Source: Mesorhizobium sp.
GTDB lineage: Bacteria; Pseudomonadota; Alphaproteobacteria; Rhizobiales; Rhizobiaceae
Direction of reading: 5' to 3'
Assembly (NCBI GenBank): GCA_004017535.1
Contig: SAJS01000009.1
Span: 62,001-126,000 of the forward strand
Length of the DNA: 64,000 nucleotides
Both the position numbers and the translations under genes were made by a program. Below are positions 2,920 through 64,000 of the stretch, piece after piece. Every line of letters starts with the position of its first letter. Positions within the stretch are counted from its first letter, which is position 1. The notes below the pieces were generated by a model. It was given only the letters and a program-made list of their open reading frames with translations. It searched no databases and was not told the DNA's origin.

Positions 2920-2945
2920 AGCTTTTCCAGATAGGCAGTGCAAGA

Positions 2946-2974
2946 AGCCGTCCGGAACAACCGGGCGGCTTTTT
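2946..2974 (+). terminator. Rho-independent terminator of the RND gene
   Basis: AGCCGTCCGG, loop AACAA, CCGGGCGGCT, then five T. The 10-bp stem has one G-T pair and lies 26 bp after the efflux pump stop codon. Confidence 0.85.
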
Positions 2975-3016
2975 GCATTGTTCCCTCGAAGTTCAACCAT
3001 TCGGCGAGGATTTTTC

Positions 3017-3175
3017 ATGACGATCGGCACAATTCTCGTAATAATCCTGATCCTGATCTTGATCGGCGCCGTGCCGGCATGGCCGCATTCGCGCTCCTGG
3101 GGCTACGGCCCTTCTGGCATCGTGGGCGTCATTTTGGTCGTGCTGCTCATCCTGCTGCTGATGGGCAGAATCTGA
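3017..3175 (+). CDS. DUF3309 small hydrophobic membrane peptide
   Basis: A 52-residue protein with two hydrophobic stretches (residues 3-20, rich in Ile/Leu, and 33-50) separated by a short polar loop with WPHSRSWGYGPSG. This Trp/His/Gly-rich loop between two membrane segments is the DUF3309 pattern, a peptide common in soil alphaproteobacteria and of unknown function. The ATG at 3017 is preceded by GGCGAGGA as ribosome-binding site. It stands alone between two terminators, so it is probably its own transcription unit. No function can be inferred from the sequence. Confidence 0.8.
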   Translation: MTIGTILVIILILILIGAVPAWPHSRSWGYGPSGIVGVILVVLLILLLMGRI

Positions 3176-3189
3176 TCTTCAATGAATTG

Positions 3190-3216
3190 CGGCCGGGCTT
3201 TGAAACCCGGCCGTTT
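3190..3216. terminator. Bidirectional terminator between DUF3309 gene and the minus-strand oxidoreductase
   Basis: CGGCCGGG, short loop, CCCGGCCG with T-rich sequence after it on the plus strand. It sits between convergent genes and can serve both. Confidence 0.75.
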
Positions 3217-3236
3217 CATTTCGTTGGAGCTTTGGA

Positions 3237-4193: not shown

Positions 4194-4277
4194 CTGTTCT
4201 CTCCGTTGTGTGCGTTTGCCTCTGCAATCTGGTACCTTCATGGACGAATTGAAATTGACTGAAGTCGGCGTTCTGTT

Positions 4278-4291
4278 ATTCAAAAATGAAT
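4278..4291. promoter_or_regulatory. Candidate LysR operator overlapping the regulator start
   Basis: ATTCA-AAAA-TGAAT, a perfect 5-bp palindrome that overlaps the LysR start codons at 4286/4290 in the divergent intergenic region. Its position suits autorepression, but five base pairs is short enough to arise by chance. Confidence 0.3.
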
Positions 4292-5204
4292 GAAGGAATT
4301 CGACTGGAACCTGATCAAGAGTTTTGTCGCAGTCGCCGAGACCGGCAGTCTGTCGGGCGCCGCGCGCCGGCTCGCGGCCAGCCAACCGACGCTTGGCCGC
4401 CACATTGCAGAGCTGGAGGCGGCACTTGGCGTCACACTGTTCCGGCGCGGACGTCGCGGCTACGAGCTGACGGAAGCGGGCAGCACGCTCTACGAGCGCG
4501 GGCGGGCGGTCAACGAGCAGGCCAATGCGTTCTCGCTGCTGGCGCTGGGGTCGGTCGAGGCGATAGAGGGCACGGTGCGCATCGCCGCCTCGGAAGTGGT
4601 CGCCGCCTTCGTGCTGCCGCAGATGATGGCGCGGCTCGGCGAGGAGGAGCCGGGCATCGAGGTCGAGATCGTCGCCTCCAACCAGGTCGAGAATCTCTTG
4701 CGCCGCGACGCCGACATCGCCATCCGCATGGTCAGGCCGGCGCAGAATGAGCTGGTGGCGCGCAAGGTGACCGACATTCCGCTCTGCCTATGCGCCGCGA
4801 GCGTCTATCTCGACCGGCGCGGCCGGCCGGAAAAATCCGCCGACCTCACCGATCACGCCTTGGTCGGCTTCGACCGCAGCGACGAGATCATTCGCGGCTT
4901 CACATCGTTTGGCATTCCGGTCGGCCGCAGCCATTTCCGCTTTAGGACCGACAATCAGATCGTGCTGTGGGAAGCGGTGCGGACCGGCAACGGCATCGGC
5001 CTCGGCCAGGAGCCGCTGGCCGACCGCGATCCCGACCTGGAAAAGCTGTTGCCGGACGTGCCGCTGCCGGTCCTGCCCGTCTGGCTCGCCATGCATCGCG
5101 ACATACGCACCAGCATGCGCATCCGCCGCGTGGCGGATTTCCTGCACGAGGAGCTGAAGCGCTATTCGGCCGGCACGGGTTCGGGAGCGAATTCGGCGCG
5201 GTGA
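4290..5204 (+). CDS. LysR-family transcriptional regulator
   Basis: A 304-residue DNA-binding regulator. Residues 4-62 form the winged helix-turn-helix (DWNLIKSFVAVAETGSLS, then AARRLAASQPTLGRHI as the recognition region, then LGVTLFRR). The remainder is the effector-binding domain. An ATG four bases upstream is in another frame, so 4290 is the only ATG that gives the family N-terminus. It is divergent from the NmrA-like gene, the usual target arrangement for LysR proteins. Its last 43 bases overlap the end of the convergent MFS gene on the other strand. Confidence 0.9.
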   Translation: MKEFDWNLIKSFVAVAETGSLSGAARRLAASQPTLGRHIAELEAALGVTLFRRGRRGYELTEAGSTLYERGRAVNEQANAFSLLALGSVEAIEGTVRIAASEVVAAFVLPQMMARLGEEEPGIEVEIVASNQVENLLRRDADIAIRMVRPAQNELVARKVTDIPLCLCAASVYLDRRGRPEKSADLTDHALVGFDRSDEIIRGFTSFGIPVGRSHFRFRTDNQIVLWEAVRTGNGIGLGQEPLADRDPDLEKLLPDVPLPVLPVWLAMHRDIRTSMRIRRVADFLHEELKRYSAGTGSGANSAR

Positions 5205-6343
5205 GCAAGGCCCGCCATCAGGAGCACGATGACCAGCAGGCCGGAAAGCGCAATGAAGATCGGCCCGAAGCTCGAATGCTCCGCGACGAAGCCGATTGCC
5301 GACGGCGCCACCAATATGCCCGAATAGCCCATGGTGGTGACCACGCTCATGCCGGTGCCGGAAGACATGCCTTCCTGGTTGCCGCCGGCCGAGAACAGGA
5401 TCGGCACCATGTTGGCGATGCCGAAGCCGCAGAAGGCGAAGGCGGCGATGGCGAGGTAAGGCGAGGACGAGAGGCCGGCGACCAGCATGCCGGCAGCGGC
5501 GACCAGCGCCGAGCCGCGCAGCGTCGACACGGCGCTGAAGCGGTTGCGCACGCCATCGCCCAGGAAGCGCATCAGCGCCATGACGCCGGAAAAGGCGGCA
5601 TAGGCGAGACCGGCGACCGCGAGGTCGGCGCCCAGCTCCTGATGCAGGAAGAGCGCCGCCCAATCGAGCACCGCGCCTTCCGAGATCATGGTGAGCAGCG
5701 CCATCAGCCCGACCAGATAGACGGCGGTGTGTCGGGGCAGCGTGAATTTCTGGTGCTCGACAGGCTGCGGCCGGTCCTCGGCGATGAGATAGCGAATGGC
5801 AAAGGCGATCACGGCAAAGGCGATCACCGTCGTCGCGACGGCGTGGGGAAGATAACCATAATTCTGAATCGAATAGCCGCCGAGCGCGCCGCCGGCGAAG
5901 CCGCCCAGACTCCAGAAGCCATGCGAAGACGACATGATCGCCCGGGAGAGCCTTCTTTCCACCACCACGGCATTCGAGTTCATCGCGACATCCATGCCGC
6001 CGATCGAACCGCCGAAGATGAGCATGGCTATCGCCGCCAGGGGAACGTTGGGCGCGAGCGCCACGACCAGCAGGCCGAAGCTGCCGCAGATGCCGAACCA
6101 GCGCGTCACGCTGCGCGAGCCATGCCTGGAAATGAGGTGGCCGCACCATGTCATGGCAATGACCGCGCCGACGCCGAACAGGAGGATCAGCAGACCGAGC
6201 GTGAACCGGGTGATGTCGAGCCGGGTGAGGAACACCGGGATCTGCGGCGCCCAACTGCCGGTCAGAAAACCATTGGCGAGGAAGATACCGGCGACGGCCC
6301 AGCGGCCGCGCGTCGCGGCCTGCATCGTGGTTTGCAAGGTCAT
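5162..6343 (-). CDS. MFS transporter
   Basis: A 393-residue major-facilitator permease with about twelve hydrophobic segments, close to the family's usual 390-420. The first segment is GRWAVAGIFLANGFLTGSW, followed by an Asp/Arg-containing loop; the 2-3 loop reads WCGHLISRHGSR, a weak version of the MFS GxLaDrxGrk motif. The charged central loop is near residues 190-205. It lies tail to tail with the LysR gene and shares 43 bases with it on opposite strands. The substrate is unknown; proteins of this shape include sugar and drug carriers. Confidence 0.85.
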   Translation of the reverse strand: MTLQTTMQAATRGRWAVAGIFLANGFLTGSWAPQIPVFLTRLDITRFTLGLLILLFGVGAVIAMTWCGHLISRHGSRSVTRWFGICGSFGLLVVALAPNVPLAAIAMLIFGGSIGGMDVAMNSNAVVVERRLSRAIMSSSHGFWSLGGFAGGALGGYSIQNYGYLPHAVATTVIAFAVIAFAIRYLIAEDRPQPVEHQKFTLPRHTAVYLVGLMALLTMISEGAVLDWAALFLHQELGADLAVAGLAYAAFSGVMALMRFLGDGVRNRFSAVSTLRGSALVAAAGMLVAGLSSSPYLAIAAFAFCGFGIANMVPILFSAGGNQEGMSSGTGMSVVTTMGYSGILVAPSAIGFVAEHSSFGPIFIALSGLLVIVLLMAGLAHRAEFAPEPVPAE

Positions 6344-6508
6344 GGTCTGAAATCCGCCATGTAAAATGATTCGCGCGGCAAATTAGATCGATTCAATTTG
6401 CAGTCAAGGACCGTGATGTGGAAGTGCTTGGACCAAGGGGCGGCCGAGGGTCACCGTCGTTCTTGGCAGGCTGCAGCTTCGGAGGTTTGGCAGAAGCGCC
6501 TCTCCGTT

Positions 6509-6718
6509 CGTCATCCACGGGCGGAGCAAGGAGCGAAGCGACGCGCGCAGACCCGAGGATCCATGCCGTTCCCTGGGAGCGCCGCTGCGGCGCAGAATGT
6601 TCTCTGGGGTTGTACCGTTACGATATTCTGGACCGCGGCATTTTTCGACAGCCGTCACGGAATGGATTCCAGGGTCTTCGCGCGTCGCTTCGCTCCTTGC
6701 TTCGCCCTGGAATGACGA
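6509..6718. repeat. Large imperfect inverted repeat (about 60-bp arms)
   Basis: The left arm 6509-6570 and right arm 6656-6718 are imperfect reverse complements over about 60 bp; both contain AAGGAGCGAAGCGACGCGCG or its complement. An 85-bp middle separates them. The arm sequence resembles a dispersed intergenic repeat I know from Mesorhizobium and Bradyrhizobium genomes. The remaining intergenic sequence (6344-6508 and 6719-6740) shows no gene. Confidence 0.75.
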
Positions 6719-6740
6719 CGGCGCGAAGGCGCTCGGCCTA

Positions 6741-7049
6741 TCAGTGATCCTTCGGCCGCTTGGCCTCGAACTCTGCCTTCTTGGCTTCTGAAGCCTCGGT
6801 CTGGTTGAGCGCCTGCCATTCGGCATAGGGCATGCCGTAGATGATCTCGCGCGATGCATCCTTCGACAGCGCCACGCCCTCGGCTTCGGCGGCCTCGCGA
6901 TACCAGTTGGACAGGCAGTTGCGGCAGAAGCCGGCGAGGTTCATCAGGTCGATGTTCTGGACATCGCCGCGTTCGCGCAGATGCGTCACCAACCGGCGGA
7001 AGGCGGCTGCCTCGAAGTCGCGCTTCTGGTCGTCGCTGAGTTCGGTCAT
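6741..7049 (-). CDS. DUF1244 domain protein
   Basis: A 102-residue soluble protein matching the DUF1244 family by its core (DLMNLAGFCRNCLSNWY, residues 35-51) and its length. The conserved cysteine pair FCRNC could bind a metal or iron-sulphur group, but this is untested. Start ATG at 7049 with GGAGTTTTCCGAG upstream. Its stop-to-start distance to the following amidohydrolase gene is 29 bp upstream on the same strand, so the two may be cotranscribed. Function unknown. Confidence 0.85.
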   Translation of the reverse strand: MTELSDDQKRDFEAAAFRRLVTHLRERGDVQNIDLMNLAGFCRNCLSNWYREAAEAEGVALSKDASREIIYGMPYAEWQALNQTEASEAKKAEFEAKRPKDH

Positions 7050-7078
7050 CTCGGAAAACTCCAGGACTGTCAGCCTGC

Positions 7079-7876
7079 TTACACCGGCCCGGTGCGCGAG
7101 CCGAACATTTTCACCTCGTGTATATCGGCACGGCGGTCGATGGCGTCAACGATGGGCGCCAGCCGCTCAGCCCAGGCGAGCGCCCGGGCGCGGTCGGCGA
7201 TCAGGTCCTGGCGGATCTCGATCAACGCATGCGCGTAGCCGTTGACGATGGCATGGCGGAACATGGTGTCGCCGCGCAGCGCGCCGTCATAGGGCTCGTT
7301 GTCGCCGACGACGAGGGACTTGTCCTGCGCCAGCATGTCGATCAGCGGCCGCGCAACGCGGTCGTCGCGGTCCCACAGGACGCCCACATGCCAGGGGCGG
7401 ACAAAGCCCTGCATCGCCGGCGTGAAAGAATGGACGGATAGGATGAACGGCGCCTTGCCCGAGGCGTGGACGACGGAGGCGATCATCGCGCCGACGGCGT
7501 CGTGATAGGGCCGGTAGAAGCGGTCGAGCCGCCGCTCGCGCTCCTCCGGAGCGATCGGATAATTTCCCGGCACCACGGTGCCGTCATAGAGCTGACGGAT
7601 CATGGTCGGGTCGTCCTCGCCCCGGTTGGGGTCGATCAACAGCCGCGAGAAGCCGGCCAGCACCGCCGGCGCGTCGAGCGCGGCCGCGAGCTCGCGCGTC
7701 ACCGTCTCGACGCCGATGTCATAGGCGATGTGACGGTCGAATTCGGCGGCCGGCAAACCGAGACTGCCATACTCCTCCGGCAGGTCGCGGCGGGCGTGGT
7801 CGGCCAGAAGCACGACGCCTTTCTTGCGGTCGCCCTCGACAATGTCGAACGGCGTGAAAACTGTGGATCGGGTCAT
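7079..7876 (-). CDS. N-formylglutamate amidohydrolase family protein
   Basis: A 265-residue protein of the N-formylglutamate amidohydrolase family, zinc-dependent enzymes that hydrolyse formyl-amino acids as at the end of one histidine degradation route. Visible signatures are LLADHARRDLP near the N-terminus, LLIDPNRGEDDP in the middle and FILSVHSFTPAM after it, which together provide the His and acidic residues of the family's metal site. There are no hut genes nearby, so a role in histidine breakdown is not supported by context. The ATG at 7876 is where homology begins; no strong ribosome site is visible. It probably forms a unit with the DUF1244 gene downstream. Confidence 0.85.
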   Translation of the reverse strand: MTRSTVFTPFDIVEGDRKKGVVLLADHARRDLPEEYGSLGLPAAEFDRHIAYDIGVETVTRELAAALDAPAVLAGFSRLLIDPNRGEDDPTMIRQLYDGTVVPGNYPIAPEERERRLDRFYRPYHDAVGAMIASVVHASGKAPFILSVHSFTPAMQGFVRPWHVGVLWDRDDRVARPLIDMLAQDKSLVVGDNEPYDGALRGDTMFRHAIVNGYAHALIEIRQDLIADRARALAWAERLAPIVDAIDRRADIHEVKMFGSRTGPV

Positions 7877-8112
7877 CGGCTGAAAAGGGTGTGGCGGCTT
7901 CGCTGTGGTATCGTCTTTCCACGAAGAGGACGCCGGCGCAATGCCGTTGTTTGGCCAAGGTTTCCGCAAAAAATCCCCGGCGCGGGGAGAATTTGCGCGA
8001 CGGGCCCTTCTAAATCGATTGGAATTGAACAAAACGGCGCGTTGACATGCGACCGGAGTTTGCTGAAAAGGGGCTTCGAGAGATGCAAATGTGGTTCGCA
8101 AGGGGATCTGCG

Positions 8113-8604
8113 ATGGGTTTTGTCGGCCGGCTGCGCAAGCGCCTGGCCCTGCCGTTGCTGATCGTCGGCGCGGGATTTTTCGCGATAGCCGCGACCTCGC
8201 CGGCCCGGGCCGACTTCCGCGTTTGCAACGCAACGCAAAATCTGGTGGGCGTCGGCATCGGCTATCGCGCGAAGGCCGGCTGGATCACCGAGGGCTGGTG
8301 GCACATCGAAGGATCGACCTGCAAGACGCTGATCGAGGGTCCGCTGTCATCAAGGTTTTACTATCTTTACGCAGAAGACGCCGAGCGTGGCGGGCGCTGG
8401 GACGGCCCGATCAACATGTGTGTCGCCGAAAAAGAGTTCAAGATCGCCGGCGTGAATGATTGCGTCGCCCGGGGCTTCCAACGCGCCGGATTTCAGGAAT
8501 ATGACACGGGCGAGCAGGCCAGCTGGATGGTCCAACTGACCGACGAGCCCGCAACGGGAGGCGCGCCAGCAGCGGCCCCCGCTCCGGGAACAAACAGTCA
8601 ATGA
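8113..8604 (+). CDS. DUF1036 secreted/periplasmic protein
   Basis: A 163-residue protein with a signal peptide (basic RLRKR, hydrophobic LALPLLIVGAGFFAIAA, cleavage after ARA) and a DUF1036 domain. The domain begins DFRVCNAT and contains GYRAKAGWITEGWW and the CKTLIEG turn. A Pro/Ala tail follows. Starts at 8083 and 8113 are both possible; I prefer 8113 because AGGGGA stands at the right distance and the signal peptide then has normal length. Its stop overlaps the start of pyruvate kinase by 4 bp (ATGA), so the two are translationally coupled. The function is unknown. Confidence 0.8.
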   Translation: MGFVGRLRKRLALPLLIVGAGFFAIAATSPARADFRVCNATQNLVGVGIGYRAKAGWITEGWWHIEGSTCKTLIEGPLSSRFYYLYAEDAERGGRWDGPINMCVAEKEFKIAGVNDCVARGFQRAGFQEYDTGEQASWMVQLTDEPATGGAPAAAPAPGTNSQ

Positions 8605-10028
8605 GACGCAACCGCAAGGTCAAGATCCTCGCCACCATCGGTCCTGCTTCCTCTTCGGAGGAGATGCTAAGAAAGCTCTTCGAAGCCGGCGCCGATGTCT
8701 TCCGCATCAATATGAGCCATACCGACCACGAGCTGATGCGCACGCTGGTCGGGCGCATCCGCGCGGTCGAGGCCGCCGTCGGCCGGCCGATCGGCATTCT
8801 TGCCGACCTGCAGGGCCCGAAGCTCAGGGTCGGCAAGTTCGTCAACGGCAAGGAAGCGCTGACTGTCGGCCAGACCTTCACGCTCGACGACAATCCGGAA
8901 CCCGGCACGTCGAAGCGTGTGTACCTGCCGCACCCCGAAATCCTGAGCTCGGTCGAGGCCGGTCACAGACTTTTGATCGACGACGGCAAGCTGGAGCTGA
9001 AGGCTCTGAAGGCCGACGGCAAGTCGATCACCTGCACGGTCGTCGCCGGCAGCGGCATCTCCGACAAGAAGGGCGTCAGCCTGCCCGATACCGACCTGCC
9101 GGTCGGCGCGCTGACCGACAAGGACCGCGCCGATCTCGACGCGGTGCTTGCCACCGGCGTCGACTGGGTGGCGCTGTCCTTCGTGCAGCGGCCGGAGGAT
9201 CTGGCGGAAGCCCGCAAGATCGCGCGCGGCCGCGCGCTGATCATGGCCAAGATCGAGAAGCCGCAGGCGGTCGCCAGGCTCCCCGAGATCATCGAGCTCT
9301 CCGACGCGCTGATGGTCGCCCGCGGTGATCTCGGCGTCGAGATGCCGATCGAAGCCGTGCCCGGCATCCAGAAGCAGATCACGCGCGCGGCGCGGCGCGC
9401 CGGCAAGCCGGTGGTGATCGCCACACAGATGCTGGAATCGATGATCACCGCGCCGGTGCCGACCCGAGCCGAGGTCTCCGACGTTTCAATAGCGGTGTTC
9501 GAGGGCGCCGATGCGATCATGCTTTCGGCCGAATCCGCGGCCGGCGCCTATCCGGTCGAGGCGGTTGGCATGATGAACCGCATCGCCACCAAGGTCGAAA
9601 CGGACCCGACCTATGCCGGCATCATCAACGCGCAGCGTTCTGAACCCGAGGCGACCGGTGCGGACGCCATCTCGCTCGCCGCTCGCGAGATCGCCGAGAC
9701 GCTGAAACTATCGGCGATCATTTCCTACACCGCGTCCGGCACCACCGGGCTGCGCGCCGCGCGCGAGCGCCCGCAGGTGCCGATCGTGGCGCTGTCGCCG
9801 ATCCTCAACACCGCGCGCCGCCTGTCGCTGCTGTGGGGCACGCATTGCGTGGTTTCGGAGGACGCTACCGACCTCGACGACATGGTCGACCGGGCCTGCC
9901 GCATCGCGCTGGAAGAAGGTTTCGGCAAGCCTGGCGACCGTGTCATCATCACGGCCGGCGTGCCGCTCAGGACACCCGGATCGACCAATATGCTGCGTAT
10001 TGCGTATATCGGGTCTGAGACGCATTAG
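8601..10028 (+). CDS. pykA: Pyruvate kinase
   Basis: Catalyses phosphoenolpyruvate + ADP to pyruvate + ATP. The 475-residue length fits the family. Motifs in order: KILATIGPASSS (residues 8-19), RINMSH, MAKIEKPQAV (active-site Lys) and VIATQMLESM, followed by the C-terminal domain. It overlaps the DUF1036 gene by 4 bp. A 148-bp repeat element begins 6 bp after its stop codon, so the transcript's 3' end probably lies within that foldback sequence. Confidence 0.97.
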   Translation: MRRNRKVKILATIGPASSSEEMLRKLFEAGADVFRINMSHTDHELMRTLVGRIRAVEAAVGRPIGILADLQGPKLRVGKFVNGKEALTVGQTFTLDDNPEPGTSKRVYLPHPEILSSVEAGHRLLIDDGKLELKALKADGKSITCTVVAGSGISDKKGVSLPDTDLPVGALTDKDRADLDAVLATGVDWVALSFVQRPEDLAEARKIARGRALIMAKIEKPQAVARLPEIIELSDALMVARGDLGVEMPIEAVPGIQKQITRAARRAGKPVVIATQMLESMITAPVPTRAEVSDVSIAVFEGADAIMLSAESAAGAYPVEAVGMMNRIATKVETDPTYAGIINAQRSEPEATGADAISLAAREIAETLKLSAIISYTASGTTGLRAARERPQVPIVALSPILNTARRLSLLWGTHCVVSEDATDLDDMVDRACRIALEEGFGKPGDRVIITAGVPLRTPGSTNMLRIAYIGSETH

Positions 10029-10034
10029 GTATGC

Positions 10035-10182
10035 CGATATTCAGATGAGGCCGGCCTGCAAGTAGCGGCTTCCTGCGCTTCCGGTGTGTACTTTAAGTAC
10101 GCTCCGCTCCGGTTCTCGAAGCCATCCAGTTTGGTCGCTTCGCGCCCGTCTTAGACTCCGGCTCGGCCTAACCTGAATCTCG
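10035..10182 (+). repeat. Foldback repeat element, family A copy 1
   Basis: A 148-bp element bounded by CGATATTCAGATGAGGCCG and CGGCCTAACCTGAATCTCG, which are imperfect 19-bp terminal inverted repeats. The interior has the palindrome GTACTTTAAGTAC. It matches copies at 29988-30113 and 43443-43623 in the same orientation. It starts 6 bp after the pykA stop. No protein is encoded. The next 50 bp up to the minus-strand hydrolase show nothing. Confidence 0.9.
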
Positions 10183-10232
10183 GCACAGCTAGCCGTACCC
10201 GCCCAAGCGTTCAGGAGCTGATTACCGAAGTT

Positions 10233-11294
10233 TCAGGTCGGCGCGAGCTCGGCGTCGGGCACCTTGATGTCGGGGCACTTGCCGTCATTGTAGGCGTCGC
10301 CGGCAATCCGGCCCTCCACGGCCTTGGCTATCGCTTGTAGATCGACATCTTCGCCCGCGACCTTCCGGATCGCGCCGACCACGAGATCGGGTGCGATCCA
10401 GTCCGGCTTATGGCCGAGATTGCGGACCCAAACCAGTTCGGCGCCGGGAATGTCGCGCTCGAGGCCGACGGAGTGGATCGTCGCGTAGACCACCTTGTCG
10501 CGGTCGCCCGAGATGACGACGGTCGGCGCCTTGATCTCCCGGTAAGCGGGCGAGGCGGTCCGGACATAGTCGTGGAGCTGGGCGACATCGCGAGCGTTGG
10601 CGCGGAAGGCGGATGGCCTGAGCACCAGCGGGATCGAGGCGTTTTGGAGATAAAAGTCCGGCAGGGTGTTGGGGGAGAAGACGCAAGCAGTCGCATCGCC
10701 GATCCGCAGCATGCCGGCCGGGCAGGCGAGCGTTTCCGAAAACAGCCAGCCGACCACCGGCGTGGCGGTGAGCTTGTAATACCAGGCGGTCGCGCCGCCT
10801 GGCCATGGGTGCGTGGCGGGGGCGAGGAAGACCAGACCCAGCGTCTTTTCAGGATGCTGGCGAGCGAAGGCCGTGGTGATCGCGCCGCCGAAGGAATGGG
10901 CGACGACAATGGCCTTTGCAATGCCGAGGCGGTCCATCAGCCCGGCGATCGTATCGGCCTGCGCGGCCAGAGTTTCGTTGTTGCCGCGCCGCGACCAGCC
11001 GAGGCCCGGGCGGTCGAGGAACAGCATCTCGGCGCGGCCCTCGAGCAGCGGCTTCAGCGGCAGCATCTGGTCCTTGAGGTTGGCGCTGGCGCCATGGATG
11101 AAGACGAGCGGCGCCAGGTCGGCGTCGGCAGGCGCCGGGATATGGGCATAATGGATGCGCGCGCCGTTGACCTCGGCGAACTCGCCGGCCGGCGGACTGC
11201 GTCGCTCGATCAGCCAGACGCCGGCGCGGGTGATGCCGGCCAGGGCAAAGAGGAGCGCGATGAGGAAGAGGAGCGCGGCGCCGATGAGGTTCAT
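10233..11294 (-). CDS. Membrane-anchored alpha/beta hydrolase
   Basis: A 353-residue protein with an N-terminal membrane segment (residues 2-25, LIGAALLFLIALLFALAGI) and an alpha/beta hydrolase domain. The oxyanion-hole motif is FIHGAS, the nucleophile elbow AHSFGG, and the likely acid and histidine of the triad lie in ISGDRDKVV and RNLGHKPD. The lid region carries two cysteines (ACPAG and TACVF) that could form a disulphide, so the domain probably faces the periplasm. The substrate is unknown. It stands alone, with 135 bp of unassigned sequence before the next gene. Confidence 0.87.
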   Translation of the reverse strand: MNLIGAALLFLIALLFALAGITRAGVWLIERRSPPAGEFAEVNGARIHYAHIPAPADADLAPLVFIHGASANLKDQMLPLKPLLEGRAEMLFLDRPGLGWSRRGNNETLAAQADTIAGLMDRLGIAKAIVVAHSFGGAITTAFARQHPEKTLGLVFLAPATHPWPGGATAWYYKLTATPVVGWLFSETLACPAGMLRIGDATACVFSPNTLPDFYLQNASIPLVLRPSAFRANARDVAQLHDYVRTASPAYREIKAPTVVISGDRDKVVYATIHSVGLERDIPGAELVWVRNLGHKPDWIAPDLVVGAIRKVAGEDVDLQAIAKAVEGRIAGDAYNDGKCPDIKVPDAELAPT

Positions 11295-11429
11295 GCGGTG
11301 AGATACGACGGCAGGTGACGATCTGGTTCAGCAGTCAGCCGATCTTGACAGGTTCAGCCACGTTGGCTGCCGGAATCTATCGCGCTGCCGTGGCCCGCGC
11401 GAGCCGGGAAGTCTCCGCCAATCGCCGGA

Positions 11430-11831
11430 CTAGTTCAGATTGATGTCGCGACTTGCCGAGCGCATCGACACCGAGAAGCCGGCCAGAACGTCGAACAGCG
11501 CGATGATCATCAGTGTGAAGAAGACGGAGTGCGCTGCGCCCTTCACCAGCAGGAACTCGACGAGAAAGGCGATGAAGACCAGCGTCGACAGAAGGTGATC
11601 CAGGATCGAGGCATTGGTCGTGCGCACCGATTTCGAGATTTCGACGAATAGAAAGATCAGCCCGATCAGCACCATCAGGTCGCCCAGCGTCATCGAGAAG
11701 ACGCCGCCCGACATCATGCGGAAGGAGAACATCTCGGTCATCCAGGGATCGTCGCCGCCGCCGAACAATCCGAGCAGGCCCAGATTGTAGAGGACGAAAG
11801 GCACGATCAGCAGCGGGATGGCACCGAACAT
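11430..11831 (-). CDS. Small integral membrane protein, unknown function
   Basis: A 133-residue protein with four hydrophobic segments: about residues 5-25, 50-66, 82-105 and 108-125. There are no residues that identify an enzyme. I use the ATG at 11831, which has GGAG eight bases upstream and puts the first membrane segment at the N-terminus; a longer reading to 11966 would run through a perfect 28-bp palindrome and is unlikely. The family was not recognised. It lies downstream of rpmF on the same strand but is separated from it by a terminator. Confidence 0.7.
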   Translation of the reverse strand: MFGAIPLLIVPFVLYNLGLLGLFGGGDDPWMTEMFSFRMMSGGVFSMTLGDLMVLIGLIFLFVEISKSVRTTNASILDHLLSTLVFIAFLVEFLLVKGAAHSVFFTLMIIALFDVLAGFSVSMRSASRDINLN

Positions 11832-11939
11832 CTGGGCGACTCCAATCAGGGCACCCCCTCTTGTAAAATCCGCGGCAAGCGCGCCGTCAAGGTTTTTCGC
11901 AGGCGGCGATGAACACGCTGTAAGACCTAATGAAATAAC

Positions 11940-11967
11940 GATGTCAGCCGGTTGTCCGGCTGACATC
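11940..11967. promoter_or_regulatory. Perfect 28-bp palindrome upstream of the four-TM protein gene
   Basis: GATGTCAGCCGG, loop TTGT, CCGGCTGACATC: twelve perfect base pairs, about 110 bp upstream of the ATG at 11831. On the minus strand it is followed by GTTATTTCATT, so it could be a weak second terminator after rpmF, or an operator or RNA hairpin. Confidence 0.6.
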
Positions 11968-12052
11968 GCATCCCTCCAGGCGCGGCCTCGACAATGGGAA
12001 CCATCTCATGCCGCCTTCGGGACCAGTCGGCGGACCGGCAGGGCGCCAAAAC

Positions 12053-12080
12053 AAAAAGACCGGCCAAGGGCCGGTCTTTT
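12053..12080 (-). terminator. Terminator of rpmF
   Basis: On the minus strand AAAAGACCGGCC, CTT, GGCCGGTCTTTTTG; stem of 12 bp with an A-run before and T-run after, so it can work both ways. Confidence 0.9.
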
Positions 12081-12105
12081 GAAAGTCGCAAACCTTGGAA
12101 GCGTC

Positions 12106-12288
12106 TCAGCTTTCCTTCGGCTCCAGAACCTGGCGGCCGCGATACATGCCGGTCTTCAGGTCGATGTGGTGCGGGCGGCGCATTTCGCCGGAATTCTTGT
12201 CCTCGACATAGGTCGGGGCCTTGAGGGCGTCGGCCGAGCGGCGCATGCCGCGCTTCGACGGAGAGGTTTTTCTTTTTGGAACGGCCAT
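12106..12288 (-). CDS. rpmF: 50S ribosomal protein L32
   Basis: A 60-residue basic protein that starts [20 protein letters not shown] and has [19 protein letters not shown], the alphaproteobacterial L32 sequence pattern. It is a component of the large ribosomal subunit near the peptidyl-transferase exit. This version lacks the four cysteines that bind zinc in some bacterial L32 proteins. It is monocistronic as far as can be seen, with a terminator 26 bp downstream and mtgA more than 150 bp upstream on the same strand. Confidence 0.97.
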
Positions 12289-12442
12289 GGATATGCTCCA
12301 CTACATGGTCAAAATGCCCCGGCAACCCTCGCGAAAGGGCCGCATCGAGGCCATAATCTGAGAAAGTCGGGTGCCTATACACGCCTTGCGCCGTTTTGGC
12401 CAGCGTTACCCGCGAATTTTTTTGAACCGGCGCCGCTTCGTC

Positions 12443-13150
12443 CTAATCGAGGCATCCGACATACGCGCCGGACCGGCTGGCGCGCCTTTCTATCAGCGAG
12501 GCCAGCCGGCGCAATCCTGGCCCAGGCTTGGCCGGATTGCGCGCGATCGGGTTGGGCAGGCTGACGGCGAGCAGAGCGGCTTGCCTTCGCGACAACTGTT
12601 TGGCCGATACGCCGAAATGATGCCGCGCGGCGGCCTCGATGCCGTAGATGCCCGGGCCCCATTCCGCGATGTTGAGGTAGATCTCCATGATCCGCCGCTT
12701 CGACATCACCGCATCGAAATAGACGGCCAAAGGCAGCTCGACCACCTTGCGCACACTGCCAAGCGGCCGCGACCACAGGAAAAGGTTCTTCACCGTCTGC
12801 ATGGTGATGGTGGAGGCGCCGCGCGTCGCCTCGCCGGCCAGCGCGTCATCGACCACGCCACGCAATTCGCCGAGATCGACGCCGCGATGGAAACAGAACT
12901 GCCCGTCTTCCGACATGATCACCGAATGCGCCAGCACCGGCGCCACGTCATCGATCGACACCCAGCGCCGGTCGTAGCCGGAGAAGGTCGCGAGGTCCTT
13001 CAGCATAAGGGTCGATATCGGATGCACGAAGGACGGAAGGTACAGGAAGGTGAGCACGACCGGAATGGCCGCCAGCACGAGCGCGACAACCAGGCAGCGC
13101 CGGCCGATGCGCCTCAGACTGGCGCGGCTCAGGCGCCGCGACCGCGCCAT
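12443..13150 (-). CDS. mtgA: Monofunctional peptidoglycan glycosyltransferase
   Basis: A GT51 enzyme that polymerises lipid II into glycan strands on the outer face of the inner membrane. It has one N-terminal membrane segment after a basic stretch ([20 protein letters not shown]). The catalytic motif [14 protein letters not shown] carries the essential Glu; [16 protein letters not shown] and [15 protein letters not shown] are the other GT51 motifs. There is no transpeptidase domain, hence monofunctional. The start at 13150 gives 235 residues, the usual size; in-frame ATG 13225 and TTG 13249 upstream lack clear ribosome sites. Divergent from the prenyl synthase gene. Confidence 0.93.
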
Positions 13151-13278
13151 GTCCAGCCCTTCGCTTCCATGTTCGACGATCGGTTCCGTCAAGCCGTCCC
13201 ACCCGTGCCTCGCCCCCTCCGGCATAAAGGCGCGCGCCTGCTTGCGCAATGTCTGAGTGTCGGCTACCGGTCCCGGCC

Positions 13279-14196
13279 ATGAGCAAAGACGACCGGATCG
13301 CCTTCGAAACCGCGCTTTTCCTGCGCGCCGCCGCCGCCGAGACCGAGCTGCGCCGGATTCTTGACGCGCGTCCGCTCACCGGTGAGATCGAGCGGCCCGA
13401 GCGTTTGATGGCGGCGATGCGGCATGGCGTACTCAACGGCGGCAAGCGGCTGCGGCCTTTCCTAGTCATGGAAAGTGCCGCGCTGTTTTCGGCCGACAAT
13501 GACGCGGCGTTACGCGTCGCCGCGGCGCTGGAATGCGTGCATTGCTATTCGCTGATCCATGACGACCTGCCTTCCATGGACGACGACGATCTGCGCCGCG
13601 GCCAGCCGACCGTGCACAAGGCCTTCGACGAGGCGACAGCGATCCTCGCCGGCGACGCGCTGCTGACCTTGGCCTTCGACATCATTGCCGACGAGGCGAC
13701 GGCATTGCCCGCCGACCGTCGAGTGGCGCTCGTGCTGGCGCTCGCGCGCGCGGCCGGCGCCGGCGGCATGGTCGGCGGCCAGATGCTCGATCTGGAAGCC
13801 GAGCGCAACCGGCCGGACGAGGCAGGCATCATCACGTTGCAGGCGATGAAGACCGGCGCGCTGATCCGCTTCGCCTGCGAGGCCGGCGCGATCGTCGCCG
13901 GCGCGCCGTCCGCCGACCGCGAGCGGCTGGCCGAATTCGGCTCGGCGATCGGCCTTGCCTTCCAGCTCGCCGACGACCTGCTCGACCTGACCGCTGACGC
14001 CAAGCAGATGGGCAAGGCGACCAACAAGGACGCCGCCGCCGGCAAGGCGACGCTCGCTTCGCTGCACGGCCCCGACTGGGCGCGCGGCCAGCTCCACGGC
14101 CTGATCGACCAGGCGCACGCGCTGCTCGAGCCCTATGGCGAGCGGGCAGGGTTGCTCAAGGAGGCCGCGACTTTTGTCGCCATCCGCAACAGCTGA
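13279..14196 (+). CDS. ispA: Polyprenyl diphosphate synthase (farnesyl/geranylgeranyl type)
   Basis: A class I trans-prenyltransferase that condenses isopentenyl diphosphate with allylic diphosphates. It has about 305 residues. The first Asp-rich motif is [11 protein letters not shown], with Tyr five residues before it (CYSLIHDD), the arrangement of the bacterial type II farnesyl synthase; the second is [18 protein letters not shown] is the substrate-binding Lys/Arg region. A longer start at 13249 adds ten residues; neither start has a strong ribosome site. The dxs/xseB genes often next to ispA are absent here. Chain length is inferred, so geranylgeranyl diphosphate is possible. No feature is seen in the 155 bp after it. 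Confidence 0.88.
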
Positions 14197-14351
14197 CGAC
14201 AGGCTATCGGACGCCTGAAGATGCTTTCGTGCCATGCCGTCGGCCTGAAGAGGCCGCATACAATCCGCCGGCTCTGACCACCGCCAGCCTCCGTCGCCGT
14301 CCAGCCGCGGAACTGGCGGCGGTATGCGCGCGGCGACGGGTCGGGACATTG

Positions 14352-16043
14352 TCAGTTCTGCACGTTCGCGGCGCGTGGGTCGGGAATGGGCACGGCGGCG
14401 ATCAGTTCGCGCGTGTAATCCTCGCGCGGTGACGACAGCACCGCGCGGCGCGGGCCGGCTTCAACGATGCGGCCGGCGCGCATGACGGCGACGTCGTGGC
14501 TCATGCGCTCGACCACCGCCATGTCGTGCGAGATGAACAGATAGGCTAAGCCCAGCGTCTCTTGCAGCTCCAGCATCAGGTCGAGCACGCGCGCCCTGAC
14601 CGACACGTCGAGCGCGGCGACGCTTTCGTCGGCGACGATCAGCTTCGGTTCCAGGGCCAGGGCGCGTGCGATGCAGATGCGCTGGCGCTGGCCGCCGGAA
14701 AATTCGTGCGGATAGCGCGAGGCGTGATCGGCTTCGAGCCCGACCCGCGCAAGAAGCGAGGCCACGCGCTCGCGCCGATCGTCCTTGCTGCCGATGCCGT
14801 GAATGACGAGCGGCTCGGCGATGGCGGCTCCCACCGTCATGCGCGGGTCGAGCGAGGCGTAGGGATCCTGGAAGATCATCTGCGCGGCGCGGCGCACCGG
14901 CCGCATCGCGCTCGCCGACAGGCCGTGAATGGACGTGCCGCCGATGATCACCGCGCCGGTGAACGGAACGAGGCCGAGCACGGCCTTGCCAGTGGTGGAC
15001 TTGCCGGAGCCGCTTTCACCAACGAGGCCGAGCGTGCGGCCCGGCCTTATCTCGAAGGAGACACCCTGCACAGCCGGCGCCTCCGAGGCGCGGCGGCGGA
15101 ACAGGCTGGCGGAAACGCCGTAGTCGACGACCAGGTTCTTCACCGAAAGCACGGGCGCTTCGCCGTTCGGCGCCGGCGGCCGGGGGGTAGCCGTGACGCG
15201 AGGCGGTGCGTCGGTTCCCGCGAAGGCGCCGAGGCGCGGCACGGCGGCAAGCAGCTCGCGCGTGTAGTCGGCTTGCGGCCGCTCGAAGATGTCGAGCACG
15301 GCGCCCGCCTCGACGATCCGTCCCTCGCGCATGACGGCCACCCGGTCGGCCATCTCGGCGACGACGCCCATATCATGGGTGATGAGGATGATGGCGGTGC
15401 CGAACTCCCGTTTCAGTTCCCGCATGAGCTTGAGGATCTGCGCCTGCACCGTCACGTCGAGCGCCGTCGTCGGCTCGTCGGCCAGAAGCACTTTCGGCCG
15501 GCAGGACAGCGCCATCGCGATCATGACGCGCTGGCGCATGCCGCCGGAGAGCTCGTGCGGATATTGCTTCATGCGCCGCGCCGGGCCGCTGATATGCACG
15601 ACATCCAGCATGTCGCGGGCACGCTGCTCGACGCTTGAACCCTCCGCCCCCTGGTGGATGCGGATCGCCTCGGTCAGCTGCGCGCCGATCGAGTGTACAG
15701 GGTTGAGCGACGTCATCGGCTCCTGGAAGATCATCGCGATCTCGCCGCCGCGCACGTCGCGCATGGCGCGCTCCGGCAGGCGCGGGAGCGACTGGCGTTC
15801 GAGCCTGATGTCGCCGCCGGCGATGCGCAGCGAGGCGCGCGGCAACAGGCGCATGATCGAAAGCGCCGTCACGGACTTGCCCGAGCCGGATTCGCCCGCA
15901 AGGCAGAGCGTCTCGCCCGACGCCAGCGCAAAGCTGATGCCGTCGATGACGCGCCTTGCGCCTTCAGGCGTCAGCGCGTCCACCGACAGGTTCTCGACGG
16001 TCAGGACAGCCTCTCTTCCTCGTCCGGAACCATCCGCCATCAA
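14352..16043 (-). CDS. Oligopeptide-type ABC transporter, tandem ATP-binding protein
   Basis: A 563-residue protein made of two ABC ATPases in one chain, equivalent to fused DppD and DppF. The first half has GESGSGKSVTALS (Walker A) near residue 55, signature LSGGMRQRVMIAMAL and VLLADEPTTALDVT (Walker B). The second half repeats these (GESGSGKSTTGKA, FSGGQRQRICIARAL, LIVADESVAALDVS) from about residue 300. It energises the two permeases at 18745-20516. It is last in the amide operon and overlaps the formamidase stop by 4 bp. Either of two adjacent ATGs (16043, 16040) may be the start. Confidence 0.93.
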   Translation of the reverse strand: MMADGSGRGREAVLTVENLSVDALTPEGARRVIDGISFALASGETLCLAGESGSGKSVTALSIMRLLPRASLRIAGGDIRLERQSLPRLPERAMRDVRGGEIAMIFQEPMTSLNPVHSIGAQLTEAIRIHQGAEGSSVEQRARDMLDVVHISGPARRMKQYPHELSGGMRQRVMIAMALSCRPKVLLADEPTTALDVTVQAQILKLMRELKREFGTAIILITHDMGVVAEMADRVAVMREGRIVEAGAVLDIFERPQADYTRELLAAVPRLGAFAGTDAPPRVTATPRPPAPNGEAPVLSVKNLVVDYGVSASLFRRRASEAPAVQGVSFEIRPGRTLGLVGESGSGKSTTGKAVLGLVPFTGAVIIGGTSIHGLSASAMRPVRRAAQMIFQDPYASLDPRMTVGAAIAEPLVIHGIGSKDDRRERVASLLARVGLEADHASRYPHEFSGGQRQRICIARALALEPKLIVADESVAALDVSVRARVLDLMLELQETLGLAYLFISHDMAVVERMSHDVAVMRAGRIVEAGPRRAVLSSPREDYTRELIAAVPIPDPRAANVQN

Positions 16044-60950: not shown

Positions 60951-61025
60951 GCGCCCATCGTCTAGCGGTCAGGACACCGCCCTCTCACGGCGGGAACAGG
61001 GGTTCGATTCCCCTTGGGCGTACCA
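60951..61025 (+). tRNA. tRNA-Glu (anticodon CTC)
   Basis: Acceptor GCGCCCA with TGGGCGT (one G-T pair), D arm TCTAGCGGTCAGGA, anticodon stem CCGCC/GGCGG with loop CTCTCAC, so anticodon CTC for the GAG codon; T arm AGGGG TTCGATT CCCCT, encoded CCA end (61023-61025). All parts pair properly. Sequence character changes right after it. Confidence 0.96.
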
Positions 61026-61152
61026 AAGAAATCAATTACTTAGGACGCATTCCCGCAAACTCGTCTAATATCCGTCAAATATCGGCTACGTGGAAAACGT
61101 TGGACCGGGATGGAGATTGATGGAATCGCGAACGTCCATATGATGGCCTGCG

Positions 61153-61725
61153 ATGATGATTAACGGTTCCTCGCTGCCGCCGGGCTACGTTCAGCACGAA
61201 GATGGAAACGGGTATGCGTACATGTCCGAAAGCGGCCGCATCGCTGTCCGGGGGTCCGCAGTCGGCGACCACCTATTCCAAAGCTCCAAGTTCGGGACGC
61301 TCAACATCTCGGCGGTGTCCAGGGAGTTGAAGCGTATGAAAGCAAAGCCCCTACGGGCAAAGTTGGACGCGGCCTTAAAGGATCATATCCGGCTTGTGGA
61401 AATCGATGAGAGCCAGGTTACCCAGATGACCAGAAAGCGGCGCGATGAGCCCGTGATTTCGATAATGGCATCCGATGGCGTCAACATTATCGACGGTCAT
61501 CATCGCCTCGCTAGGAGATTCGCGGACGGTCTCGGCTTCTTCAACATGTACATGGTGCCTGGTCAGCTAGCTCTACATGCGCAAGTTCAGACTTACATGC
61601 AAACATCCCAAGGGGGATGGGTCCGGGTGCAAACGGGGCCAACAGATGACGAAATCCAAGCCGCTGTCAGCGATAGCCTTAGAATGATGATCGCAACCAT
61701 GAGGGCCAATGGGGTGGCGCTATGA
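61153..61725 (+). CDS. ParB/Srx-fold protein
   Basis: A 190-residue protein with the ParB-like box: VISIMASDGVNIIDGHHRLA (residues 99-118; DGHHRLARR matches the DGxHR signature of the ParB/sulfiredoxin nuclease-like fold). There is no HTH of a partition ParB, so it is a stand-alone domain, the sort found in phage and mobile elements. The rest is unrecognised. 127 bp after the tRNA-Glu. Codon use is less GC-biased than in the preceding genes. No function can be claimed. Confidence 0.7.
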   Translation: MMINGSSLPPGYVQHEDGNGYAYMSESGRIAVRGSAVGDHLFQSSKFGTLNISAVSRELKRMKAKPLRAKLDAALKDHIRLVEIDESQVTQMTRKRRDEPVISIMASDGVNIIDGHHRLARRFADGLGFFNMYMVPGQLALHAQVQTYMQTSQGGWVRVQTGPTDDEIQAAVSDSLRMMIATMRANGVAL

Positions 61726-61814
61726 CTGATGGAGGGAGTGAACTCATCCGCCGGTACCGTCATTTTGCGGTTGCGATCAGGGAAAGTAATCTCGCCGAGA
61801 TAGATTATTTGTGA
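61722..61814 (+). CDS. Possible 30-residue overlapping small protein
   Basis: Starts at an ATG that overlaps the ParB-fold gene's stop (ATGA) and reads MTDGGSELIRRYRHFAVAIR then ESNLAEIDYL before TGA at 61814. The 4-bp overlap is the sort used by coupled genes, but 30 residues is small enough to be chance. Confidence 0.35.
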   Translation: MTDGGSELIRRYRHFAVAIRESNLAEIDYL

Positions 61815-61849
61815 TCTTCTCTACCCCGTTTGCGAATCGGGGAAGCTAG

Positions 61850-62902
61850 ATGTCAAGCAAGAGGTGTAAAATCCACTACAGGAAATTGCGTCGTGACAAC
61901 GACCAGTTTCCGGCGGAAAGTTTGAGTGCCAAGATACGGCAGGCTCTCAATACAAAGAAGGGGACGTCGCGTATTGGTGAAAGCGTCCAGCACCGGATCG
62001 CCGAAGTGCCTAAGCAGGAGGGCTATCGGCGGTTCCTGAATGATTTTTACGAAACCGACGAATACGTCTTCGGGGACATCTGCCTCTTCTCCCCCGGCCA
62101 AATGCAGGCACTCCTTCAGCTATCTGCTGATCCGGCTCACCCGACGCTTGATGAGGTTATGAAAGCATGGGCTATCGCAGAATCGAGGGCGCCTGCTGGG
62201 CATGAATACCTTCATGGGATCGCCTACTGGTTGGCGATTGGCGATCATTTCTACCAGATTCAGCATGTGACGCTCCAGGCGAAGGCAATGGAAGAGTATC
62301 TGACTTGGCTACTCCGCGACCAAGGCGGTGTCGTCTCTCCCAACCACTATGTCGAATTGCAAGCCGAATTTGACCGCGACCAGGTCGGCAGCGACCTTGG
62401 AGATGTGAGATCAATTGAGATTGGCGGACTTGTGCCGGAAACGGTGCGGCCGGCGCCGCCGCCGGTCCCGATGACTCCTGGCAGAGTTGTTGAGGTCGAA
62501 ACGCACGAAAGCCTCGGCGACAAAATTGCGGCGGGGTGGGGCAAGGCACGTAAGATCGTTGAAGATCTGCTGGGGCCGGTAGAGGCTGAAAAGCTGATCG
62601 AGTCGATGCCCCCGGATGCTGCGTTGGAGGTGACCGTGAACATCGGTTATCGTGCGACCCGGAGAAAATTCGGTAAGGAATTTATGGGCAATATTGCAGC
62701 CGGATTGCGAAATGCACCCGATGGCGAACTGAAAGTTCGTGGCCGCGATGGTGAGATAAAAGGCGACGACGCCCGCCTCTCTGCTGACATGACGGTGCGC
62801 AAGATGTCTGATACGAGCAGCCTGCTGGACCTTGAGAGCGCCCTTGGGCAAATGCTCGAAGTCCATCGCCGCTTCCTTCACGATGGAAAGATCGTCGCGT
62901 AG
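61850..62902 (+). CDS. 350-residue cytosolic protein, possibly RexA-like
   Basis: Not a family I can name with confidence. ATG at 61850 with GGGGAAG upstream. The N-terminal half is basic (KRCKIHYRKLRRDNDQFPAE). The middle has a WLAIGDHFYQIQHVTLQAKA segment, a Pro-rich linker (PETVRPAPPPVPMTPG) follows near residue 205, and the C-terminal about 120 residues read LEVTVNIGYRATRRKFGKEF then GELKVRGRDGEIKGDDARLS. From memory, lambda RexA has a similar order: a GD...-type segment, a linker, a beta-strand/basic helix and a strand pair with a [RK]xxD/E turn. It is followed after 19 bp by a membrane protein, just as RexA is by RexB. No nuclease motif is visible. Confidence 0.55.
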   Translation: MSSKRCKIHYRKLRRDNDQFPAESLSAKIRQALNTKKGTSRIGESVQHRIAEVPKQEGYRRFLNDFYETDEYVFGDICLFSPGQMQALLQLSADPAHPTLDEVMKAWAIAESRAPAGHEYLHGIAYWLAIGDHFYQIQHVTLQAKAMEEYLTWLLRDQGGVVSPNHYVELQAEFDRDQVGSDLGDVRSIEIGGLVPETVRPAPPPVPMTPGRVVEVETHESLGDKIAAGWGKARKIVEDLLGPVEAEKLIESMPPDAALEVTVNIGYRATRRKFGKEFMGNIAAGLRNAPDGELKVRGRDGEIKGDDARLSADMTVRKMSDTSSLLDLESALGQMLEVHRRFLHDGKIVA

Positions 62903-62921
62903 TCGCCATATTAACGAGACA

Positions 62922-63494
62922 ATGAAGATCAATTGGAGCCATCTTGCCATACCTGTTGCCGGCGCCGCTGCGGCGTGGGAATTGGCGTCCGTGGCTTTTT
63001 GGGAAGCGGCGAAGCCGTCGCTTCTGACAGCAATGTCGGTAATCGCGGCGGGTGTGCTTGTGCGGCTCGCTAGAGGGTTGCCGTTCAACAATCCAGATCA
63101 GTTCGCGCTTGACGAGGTCCGCCAAATCGCAGGCGCCATCAAGCGGTCCATCCGCGCTCTTCGGGCACTCATTGCCGTTGTCTTCCTGGCGATGGGCTCT
63201 CTGGTGTTTGCGAAGGCAATCAATACCGCCCTGCTCGCGGCCACTTACATTCCCGTGAAGGTGGCGCCTTACGTTGAGCCGGGCATTTCGGCCGTCGTGG
63301 GGTTCCTGCTTACGTATGTCTTCGTTCGGATCTTCGCCGTCATAAAAGGCGACGTCAGTCTGGCAGACCTGCAGTCCGACCTGCTGGTGAAGGCGGTGGA
63401 GCGAAAGCAGGCGGACCGCTTTGATAAGACGCTCGCTAAATCAGATGCCCCAACCATGAAAAACCCCGAAGGCTACGGGAAGATTATTCAGTAG
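62922..63494 (+). CDS. 190-residue multi-pass membrane protein, possibly RexB-like
   Basis: Hydrophobic segments at about residues 7-28 (LAIPVAGAAAAWELASVAFW), 34-52, 81-105 (LRALIAVVFLAMGSLVFAKA) and 118-140 (GISAVVGFLLTYVFVRIFAV), so three or four passes, followed by a hydrophilic tail rich in Lys and Asp (VERKQADRFDKTLAKSDAPT). The start is 19 bp after the preceding stop, so the two genes are one operon. The size and passes suit a membrane effector (lambda RexB is 144 residues, four passes). No sequence-level match could be shown by eye. Confidence 0.6.
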   Translation: MKINWSHLAIPVAGAAAAWELASVAFWEAAKPSLLTAMSVIAAGVLVRLARGLPFNNPDQFALDEVRQIAGAIKRSIRALRALIAVVFLAMGSLVFAKAINTALLAATYIPVKVAPYVEPGISAVVGFLLTYVFVRIFAVIKGDVSLADLQSDLLVKAVERKQADRFDKTLAKSDAPTMKNPEGYGKIIQ

Positions 63495-63679
63495 CACTTG
63501 GCGCCTTGGCTTGCCGGGCGCATTCGGCGGGCCTGTTATCGTTTCGCGGCTTGGCGGCGCCGGCCGGCACTTCTTTCTGAGACGCCAGGCATGCCGGTGC
63601 GGAGCGCGTAAGCTCAAGACGCGACAAGTGCCTAAGTCCCTCGTATATTAAGCTGGGCAGAATCCGCAGGGAGGGAAAA

Positions 63680-64000
63680 GTGGCTGACTGGATTTACGTT
63701 GACAATTCTAATGTGTTCATTGAAGGCAAGCGCGTGAGCGCCGTTAAAATTGGTATGGCGCCGAATATTTGGGATGCATTTGAACACCGGATTTTAGATC
63801 CCAATTATCGAATGAGTTTTGGCAAACTGTATCAGTTTGTAGCTGGCAATAATAAGGCAGAAACTGCGCGTGCTATGCTATTCGGATCGCGCCCGCCTCA
63901 GAACGATGCGATCTGGAAAATAGCAAAGCAAGCAGGCTTTGAAGTAATTGTCCATGATCGAAACTTCGCCAACAAAGAGAAGAAGATCGACACGGGAATC
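63680..64000 (+). CDS. NYN-domain (PIN-like) ribonuclease, 3' end outside window
   Basis: The first 107 residues of an open frame that runs off the window. GTG start at 63680 with GGGAGG upstream. ADWIYVDNSNVFIEGKRVSA has the first acidic residue of the NYN fold (DNSN), and KEKKIDTGI at the edge is the KxxD motif of the same fold. In the middle, KLYQFVAGNNKAETARAMLF. NYN proteins are metal-dependent RNases; many sit in toxin and phage-defence sets. This stretch is AT-rich. 63495-63679 before it shows a weak TATATT box (63644) and no gene. Confidence 0.75.
   Translation, partial: MADWIYVDNSNVFIEGKRVSAVKIGMAPNIWDAFEHRILDPNYRMSFGKLYQFVAGNNKAETARAMLFGSRPPQNDAIWKIAKQAGFEVIVHDRNFANKEKKIDTGI

Follow-up and report, generated by a model that had tools for sequence, protein, structure and literature searches.

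The window analysed here, 64,000 nucleotides of contig SAJS01000009.1 of Mesorhizobium sp., carries near its end two adjoining genes, P1 and P2, which lie on the forward strand 19 bp apart and encode proteins of 350 and 190 residues (Table 1). The open reading frame (ORF) of P1 begins with ATG. For P2 we chose the ATG at 62922, a start common to its close homologues, and a longer reading from a TTG at 62832 is possible. A first-pass annotation, made from the letters alone, had described a soluble protein directly followed by a membrane protein and likened the two to the RexA and RexB proteins of phage lambda, and the ORF calls bear out this arrangement. Just 3′ of P2 is a terminator-like hairpin of 11 pairs, one of 9 such sites in the stretch where 2.9 are expected, which may mark the end of a two-gene transcript.

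P1 belongs over residues 2–349 to PHROG 3482 (phrog_3482, E 1.7e-68), a phage family that itself carries no assigned function. It has no match in Pfam (E ≤ 1), NCBIfam (E ≤ 0.01) or PADLOC, and P2 matched nothing in the Pfam, NCBIfam, PADLOC or PHROG libraries. The pair is Rex-type by fold, gene order and context, not by sequence family, and it represents a two-gene family, without a name so far, that occurs in several proteobacterial groups, in phages as well as in bacteria. We regard it as probably a phage-exclusion (abortive-infection) module that an integrative island bears as cargo.

P1 is predicted to have a RexA-type fold

An AlphaFold2 model of P1 was built from an alignment of 31 sequences, leaving out that of locus L059 with its apparent N-terminal frameshift, and compared with 350,542 PDB chains by Foldseek. 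The first-ranked match was lambda RexA (8twq, E 1.5e-3, probability 0.94) and the second was E. coli RdgC (2owl, E 7.8e-3, probability 0.87). A structural-genomics protein ranked third with a probability of 0.08, and ranks 4 and 5 were chain N of CCAN kinetochore complexes (probability 0.75 and 0.60), which we take to be CHL4. Because the structural relatives of RexA are reported to be RdgC and the kinetochore subunits IML3 and CHL4 (PMC11077077), the leading matches of P1 form one published fold group. By its likeness to 8twq and 2owl, in one search with one model of moderate confidence, P1 is placed in this RexA/RdgC/CHL4 group. Among viral structure models, the top three matches were uncharacterised phage proteins (E below 1e-5) and ranks 4–6 were recombination-associated phage proteins named RdgC. 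The resemblance to RexA that the first-pass annotation had proposed is therefore upheld at the level of fold, where the P1 model is not unlike RexA, and not at the level of sequence.

The second-best match does not make P1 a member of the RdgC family, which it failed to match in Pfam or NCBIfam at the thresholds given above. RdgC is not known to have a membrane partner.

P2 is a predicted four-helix membrane protein

The AlphaFold2 model of P2 is confident (mean pLDDT, the predicted local distance difference test, 93.2; predicted template modelling score, pTM, 0.81). It comprises four helices, at residues 6–21, 24–51, 63–106 and 115–174, in agreement with the multi-pass protein proposed at first reading and with the four-pass membrane partner of RexAB-type systems. 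The last two helices, of 44 and 60 residues, are predicted to be long enough to reach well beyond the membrane. P2 ends in the tail NPEGYGKIIQ (window 63462–63491), and a YG or FG motif is found within the last 16 residues in 16 of 51 P2 relatives. In the RexB protein of Pseudomonas putida, a change at tyrosine 181 is reported to have relieved toxicity (PMC12894663), and this tyrosine probably also lies near the C-terminus.

As in lambda RexA/RexB (PF15969/PF15968, 8twq), then, a soluble gene comes first and a small membrane gene second, and the soluble protein has the same predicted fold. The window proteins are larger than their lambda counterparts, P1 with 350 residues against 279 for RexA and P2 with 190 against 144 for RexB; P1 contains a long low-confidence linker at residues 193–230, and P2 has the long helices beyond the membrane. 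A similar architecture is described for RexABpp (PP_5643-PP_5644) of the P. putida prophage also called P1, which combines a RexA-fold DNA-binding protein with a four-pass membrane effector, lies downstream of a CI-like repressor and needs both genes for defence (PMC12894663, 2026). By prediction the window pair is alike in both components. RexABpp and the window pair may belong to one sequence family, which we treat as a lead. Among the sequences compared, we tried to identify RexABpp by the seven residues reported mutated in RexBpp, and this failed: two P2-type proteins (L190 and L191), from genomes taken as Pseudomonadaceae, carry 3 of the 7 (W25, F35, Y181) at one offset. This is a weak fit, as unrelated ORFs also scored 3 or 4, and with a free offset 14 of 213 unrelated ORFs reached at least 3.

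Kiwa (KwaA/KwaB) is another system that joins a membrane protein to a soluble one, in an order reversed relative to P1-P2. Neither P1 nor P2 gave a PADLOC match at E ≤ 1, in a library that presumably includes Kiwa models.

The two genes are strictly linked across relatives

Relatives were sought with P1 alone, except for the E. coli locus L050 (the DNA of the pair in phage Perceval), which clusters with L003. P1 was matched in 157 of 160 loci, and in 150 it had at least 290 residues; clustering at 90% identity reduced these 150 to 60, the window's own included. The count was made without lambda/RexA loci (L002, L074-L086), duplicates of the window (L004-L006, L051, L087) and the loci from L180 on. 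In all 60 non-redundant relatives a membrane-protein gene (100–260 residues, same strand) lies directly downstream of P1, which is the order of RexAB-type systems. A downstream product was accepted as a membrane protein if it had two hydrophobic windows or matched a P2 profile, for which some of these loci had supplied the sequences; this profile matched in 52 of the 60. As a control, 1 of 302 other genes of the same loci was followed by such a gene, as judged on naive gene calls by hydrophobic windows only. Separation of the two genes in most genomes would have spoken against a Rex pair, and they were together throughout.

The distances between P1 proteins and those between their P2 partners are correlated (r 0.93, 51 pairs; the best of 1000 shuffles gave 0.12), as calculated for the 51 of 59 non-redundant loci (without L059) that had a P2-profile match, taking the best match per locus. 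Even the most divergent P1s (L054, L055, which is partial, L056 and L058) each have an adjoining membrane gene. Two viral contigs carry P1 in pieces and P2 whole (L040 4431–5513, L042 5274–5901), and an IS3 element lies within the pair of one E. coli genome (NZ_CP128255.1, near 3009235).

Strict linkage would also be expected of a toxin and its keeper. For gp30/gp31 of mycobacteriophage Butters, roles reversed relative to the Rex scheme are described (PMC12894663); applied here, P1 would be the toxic or antiviral protein, which P2 would sequester at the membrane until infection. We consider this quite improbable, given that P1 matches no nuclease or other enzymatic family. A whole P2 beside the broken P1 of L040 and L042 would also be odd if P2 only restrained P1, a weak point given that sequencing errors are possible.

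Relatives occur in phages, prophages and other mobile elements

In the lambdoid phage Perceval the genes run CI - P1 - P2 - kil - gam - bet, which puts the pair in the place that rexA-rexB occupies in lambda, and a prophage of E. coli LF82 has the same order. Among 5426 complete E. coli genomes, 42 have the Perceval-type pair, always at ≥ 99% identity; in 41 the match spans at least 80% of its length. Two Acinetobacter phages show the order CI, one small gene, P1 and membrane gene; the record of one labels its P1 'DefenseFinder protein' without stating the basis of the label. By eye, the pair of L191 also lies downstream of a CI-type repressor. In upstream ORFs scanned (48, one or two per locus), an S24 repressor domain was found in 7 and HTH_3 in 6. 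Elsewhere the pair adjoins lysis genes (Shigella phage SfIV), stands between an antirepressor-like gene and lysis genes (a Rhizobium prophage, by eye), lies among the head genes of a Mu-like element (by eye) or is borne on a plasmid. The homologues are therefore not confined to housekeeping contexts, being found in phages, prophages, a plasmid and the island described below, with some in chromosomes.

The repressor-linked copies are also what one would expect if the pair mainly regulated its mobile element, with P1 tuning the lysogeny/excision switch or recombination, P2 acting as a membrane antagonist and exclusion arising as a by-product. Lambda RexA is reported to bias the switch independently of RexB, with RexB antagonising that effect (PMC11077077), and the P1 model matches RdgC as well as RexA. 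This explanation is nevertheless unlikely, since other relatives (at lysis genes, in the Mu-like head region, on the plasmid, and in the window itself) lie away from a repressor, and the P. putida pair is described as having no influence on the repressor promoter (PMC12894663).

P1 is sparsely distributed. Genomes with P1 number 8 of 297 in the family, 7 of 397 in the order and 7 of 398 in the phylum, with the window's own genome counted each time, and 4 of 398 in a family taken as Pseudomonadaceae, to which 6 of 8 16S primer-pattern matches among 249 genomes belong. When the families of two matches were chosen as centres, only the centre itself was positive (1/144 and 1/1). None of the eight same-genus genomes listed has P1, and the closest relative found, at 88%, is in a Mesorhizobium metagenome-assembled genome. 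In titles and abstract beginnings of the literature, we found no rhizobial or PHROG-3482 Rex pair.

The pair is carried by an integrated island

The genome containing the window is 6.86 Mb in size. Upstream of the pair is the tRNA gene named in the first-pass annotation, tRNA-Glu(CTC). It carries one copy, the left, of a perfect 45-bp direct repeat whose right copy is found 14.1 kb on, outside the window. The island so delimited spans from 60982 to the equivalent of 75140 (982–15140 of locus L004), with the pair near its left end. A tyrosine integrase gene adjoins the right repeat (PF00589, E 7.1e-10; phrog_1, E 4.6e-25), and the island also encodes a phage-type primase (phrog_2249, E 2.9e-85) and a CII-like regulator (phrog_4836, E 2.7e-4). 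In the same-genus genome G1576 the site is empty, both flanks being contiguous at an intact tRNA-Glu. Because of the repeats, the integrase and the empty site, we regard the pair as cargo of an integrated satellite-like element. Phage structural families were matched by none of the 10 island proteins scanned against PHROGs, a scan that covered part of the island ORFs.

The composition of the DNA shifts as well: the GC content (guanine plus cytosine) is 53–57% in 61001–64000 and 57–70% in the other 1-kb blocks, in line with the AT-shift reported earlier. Whereas lambda rexA-rexB follow CI, the window pair is preceded by the attachment site (att) and one cargo gene. Of the chromosomal Rex-type system first proposed, the Rex type holds by fold, order and context, and chromosomal comes to mean cargo of a 14.1-kb integrated island.

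Evidence that weighs against a Rex assignment

A number of results speak against this interpretation. The P1 model is of moderate confidence (pLDDT 71.7, pTM 0.65), no PDB chain matched it in Foldseek at E 0.001, and its template modelling (TM) scores are low, at 0.28–0.33 for RexA and 0.28–0.36 for RexA and RdgC together. The fold search with P2 gave no match at E ≤ 0.001 among viral models, and RexB was not among the matches listed.

Sequence comparison likewise gave no link. BLASTP returned no match for P1 with RexA or for P2 with RexB. In HMMER searches the RexA family (PF15969, the PADLOC RexA model and phrog_12654) was unmatched by P1 or by the relatives scanned, and P2 had no sequence match to the RexB family (PF15968). 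The Pfam and PADLOC models for RexA and RexB readily detect the lambda proteins, and lambda RexA as a control gave 1e-97 (Pfam), 9e-110 (PADLOC) and 6.4e-163 (PHROG). Profile comparison by hhalign gave a probability of 0.1 for P1 against a RexA alignment of 5 rows and 0.3 for P2 against a RexB alignment of 3 rows; these are weak negatives, as the alignments are shallow, and they leave the suggested tie to RexA/RexB without a counterpart in sequence profiles. A 59-row P1 profile found nothing significant in RexA even at a permissive setting, again with a shallow RexA alignment, and PDB chain sequences searched with the P1 and P2 profiles yielded nothing relevant. An alignment made by eye between the RexA dimerisation domain and P1 residues 228–320 seemed good and was dropped after a shuffle test, in which 129, 352, 360 and 28 of 500 shuffles of the C-terminal domain equalled or passed the scores of four RexA sequences, the figure for lambda RexA being 129.

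Of the four window proteins that were scanned with PADLOC, none was recognised. Some alphaproteobacterial copies sit between ordinary chromosomal genes, and 41 of the 48 upstream ORFs scanned have no S24 domain. Furthermore, mutants of lambda RexA that differ widely in their affinity for DNA are reported to have all lost exclusion (PMC11077077), and therefore DNA binding need not be the trigger.

Proposed function and significance

If the pair works as lambda RexAB and P. putida RexABpp do, P1 would be a dimer of RexA/RdgC fold that binds DNA without sequence preference, and it would recognise either a protein that the infecting phage makes or the intermediates that arise when phage DNA replicates or recombines. 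P1, thus triggered, would activate P2, a four-helix inner-membrane protein that would assemble into a pore-like oligomer and compromise the membrane, so that the infected cell would stop growing before phage production. We infer from these two systems that P1 dimerises, binds DNA and activates P2, that P2 forms oligomers and damages the membrane, and that growth is arrested, and by the same analogy the pair would be active in phage defence.

Rex has been called the first abortive-infection system linked to anti-phage defence, only five Rex-like systems are said to have been described by January 2026, and the activation of lambda RexAB is given as still unknown (all PMC12894663). The family described here offers at least 60 distinct two-gene pairs, some in hosts with easy genetics, as variation for mapping the DNA-binding cavity, the surface of the sensor and its contact with the effector. 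No Rex model of PADLOC-DB (2023) detects any of the five pairs scanned, one membrane partner giving a weak 2TM-TIR match (E 0.014), and because these models miss the pairs, Rex-type systems are probably under-counted.

A broader proposal, to which we give slightly less than an even chance, is that PHROG 3482 and its linked membrane family form a second, much wider Rex branch, made up of a RexA-fold DNA clamp and a four-helix membrane effector. This branch would have spread through Alpha- and Gammaproteobacteria on phages, lambdoid ones among them, on plasmids and on integrase/primase islands that lack a capsid, and it would be invisible to present defence catalogues; the satellite-like island studied here would use its pair to shut down cells when competing phages attack them.

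Neighbouring genes of the island

Table 1. Features of the window at and around the P1-P2 pair.
Feature	Position	Strand	Description	Basis
P1	61850..62902	+	soluble; predicted RexA/RdgC-type fold; proposed phage sensor / DNA clamp (RexA-like)	ORF, phrog_3482, AlphaFold2 + Foldseek
P2	62922..63494	+	four-helix membrane protein; proposed effector (RexB-like)	ORF, AlphaFold2, linkage to P1
Terminator-like hairpin	63508..63533	+		pattern match only
tRNA-Glu(CTC)	60951..61025	+	insertion site of the island carrying the pair	
att, left copy of 45-bp direct repeat	60982..61026	+	right copy beyond the window, equivalent 75096-75140	
Cargo gene, 190 residues	61153..61725	+	between att and pair; ParB/sulfiredoxin-like motif	by eye only
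NYN-domain gene	63680..64000	+	cut by the window end; 179 residues in full	PF01936 on full gene

The NYN-nuclease neighbour named at first reading is confirmed on the full-length gene (L004:3680-4216) by PF01936 with E 2.5e-18. The ParB fold assigned to the other neighbour, the cargo gene between att and the pair, fared less well. Its product contains a DGHHR motif that recalls ParB/sulfiredoxin nucleases by eye, and it has no significant family match, its library matches, such as phrog_1033 (E 0.12), all being sub-threshold.

This gene bears on a further explanation, in which P1 and P2 would be a membrane-tethering or segregation pair of the island, with P1 binding DNA and P2 anchoring that DNA to the membrane. 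The ParB-like motif would suit such a role, as would the resemblance of the P1 model to DNA-encircling proteins. We consider it very improbable, because the pair also occurs in chromosomes and integrated phages, which have no need of segregation, and because the ORFs of 197 other loci, most with flanks of only 1.5–6 kb, include no relative of the ParB-like product at E ≤ 1.

Further along the island, genes at 5048–5599 and 5596–6333 of L004 have DUF6650 and HNH-repeat plus GIY-YIG (MUG113/T5orf172) domains, and these may be further defence or homing cargo. Finally, another same-genus genome contains a 48-base copy of the tRNA-Glu repeat region (L203 1233–1280). Integrase-like DNA lies close to this copy (69% over 183 bp), a hint that the tRNA-Glu site may be used by different elements.
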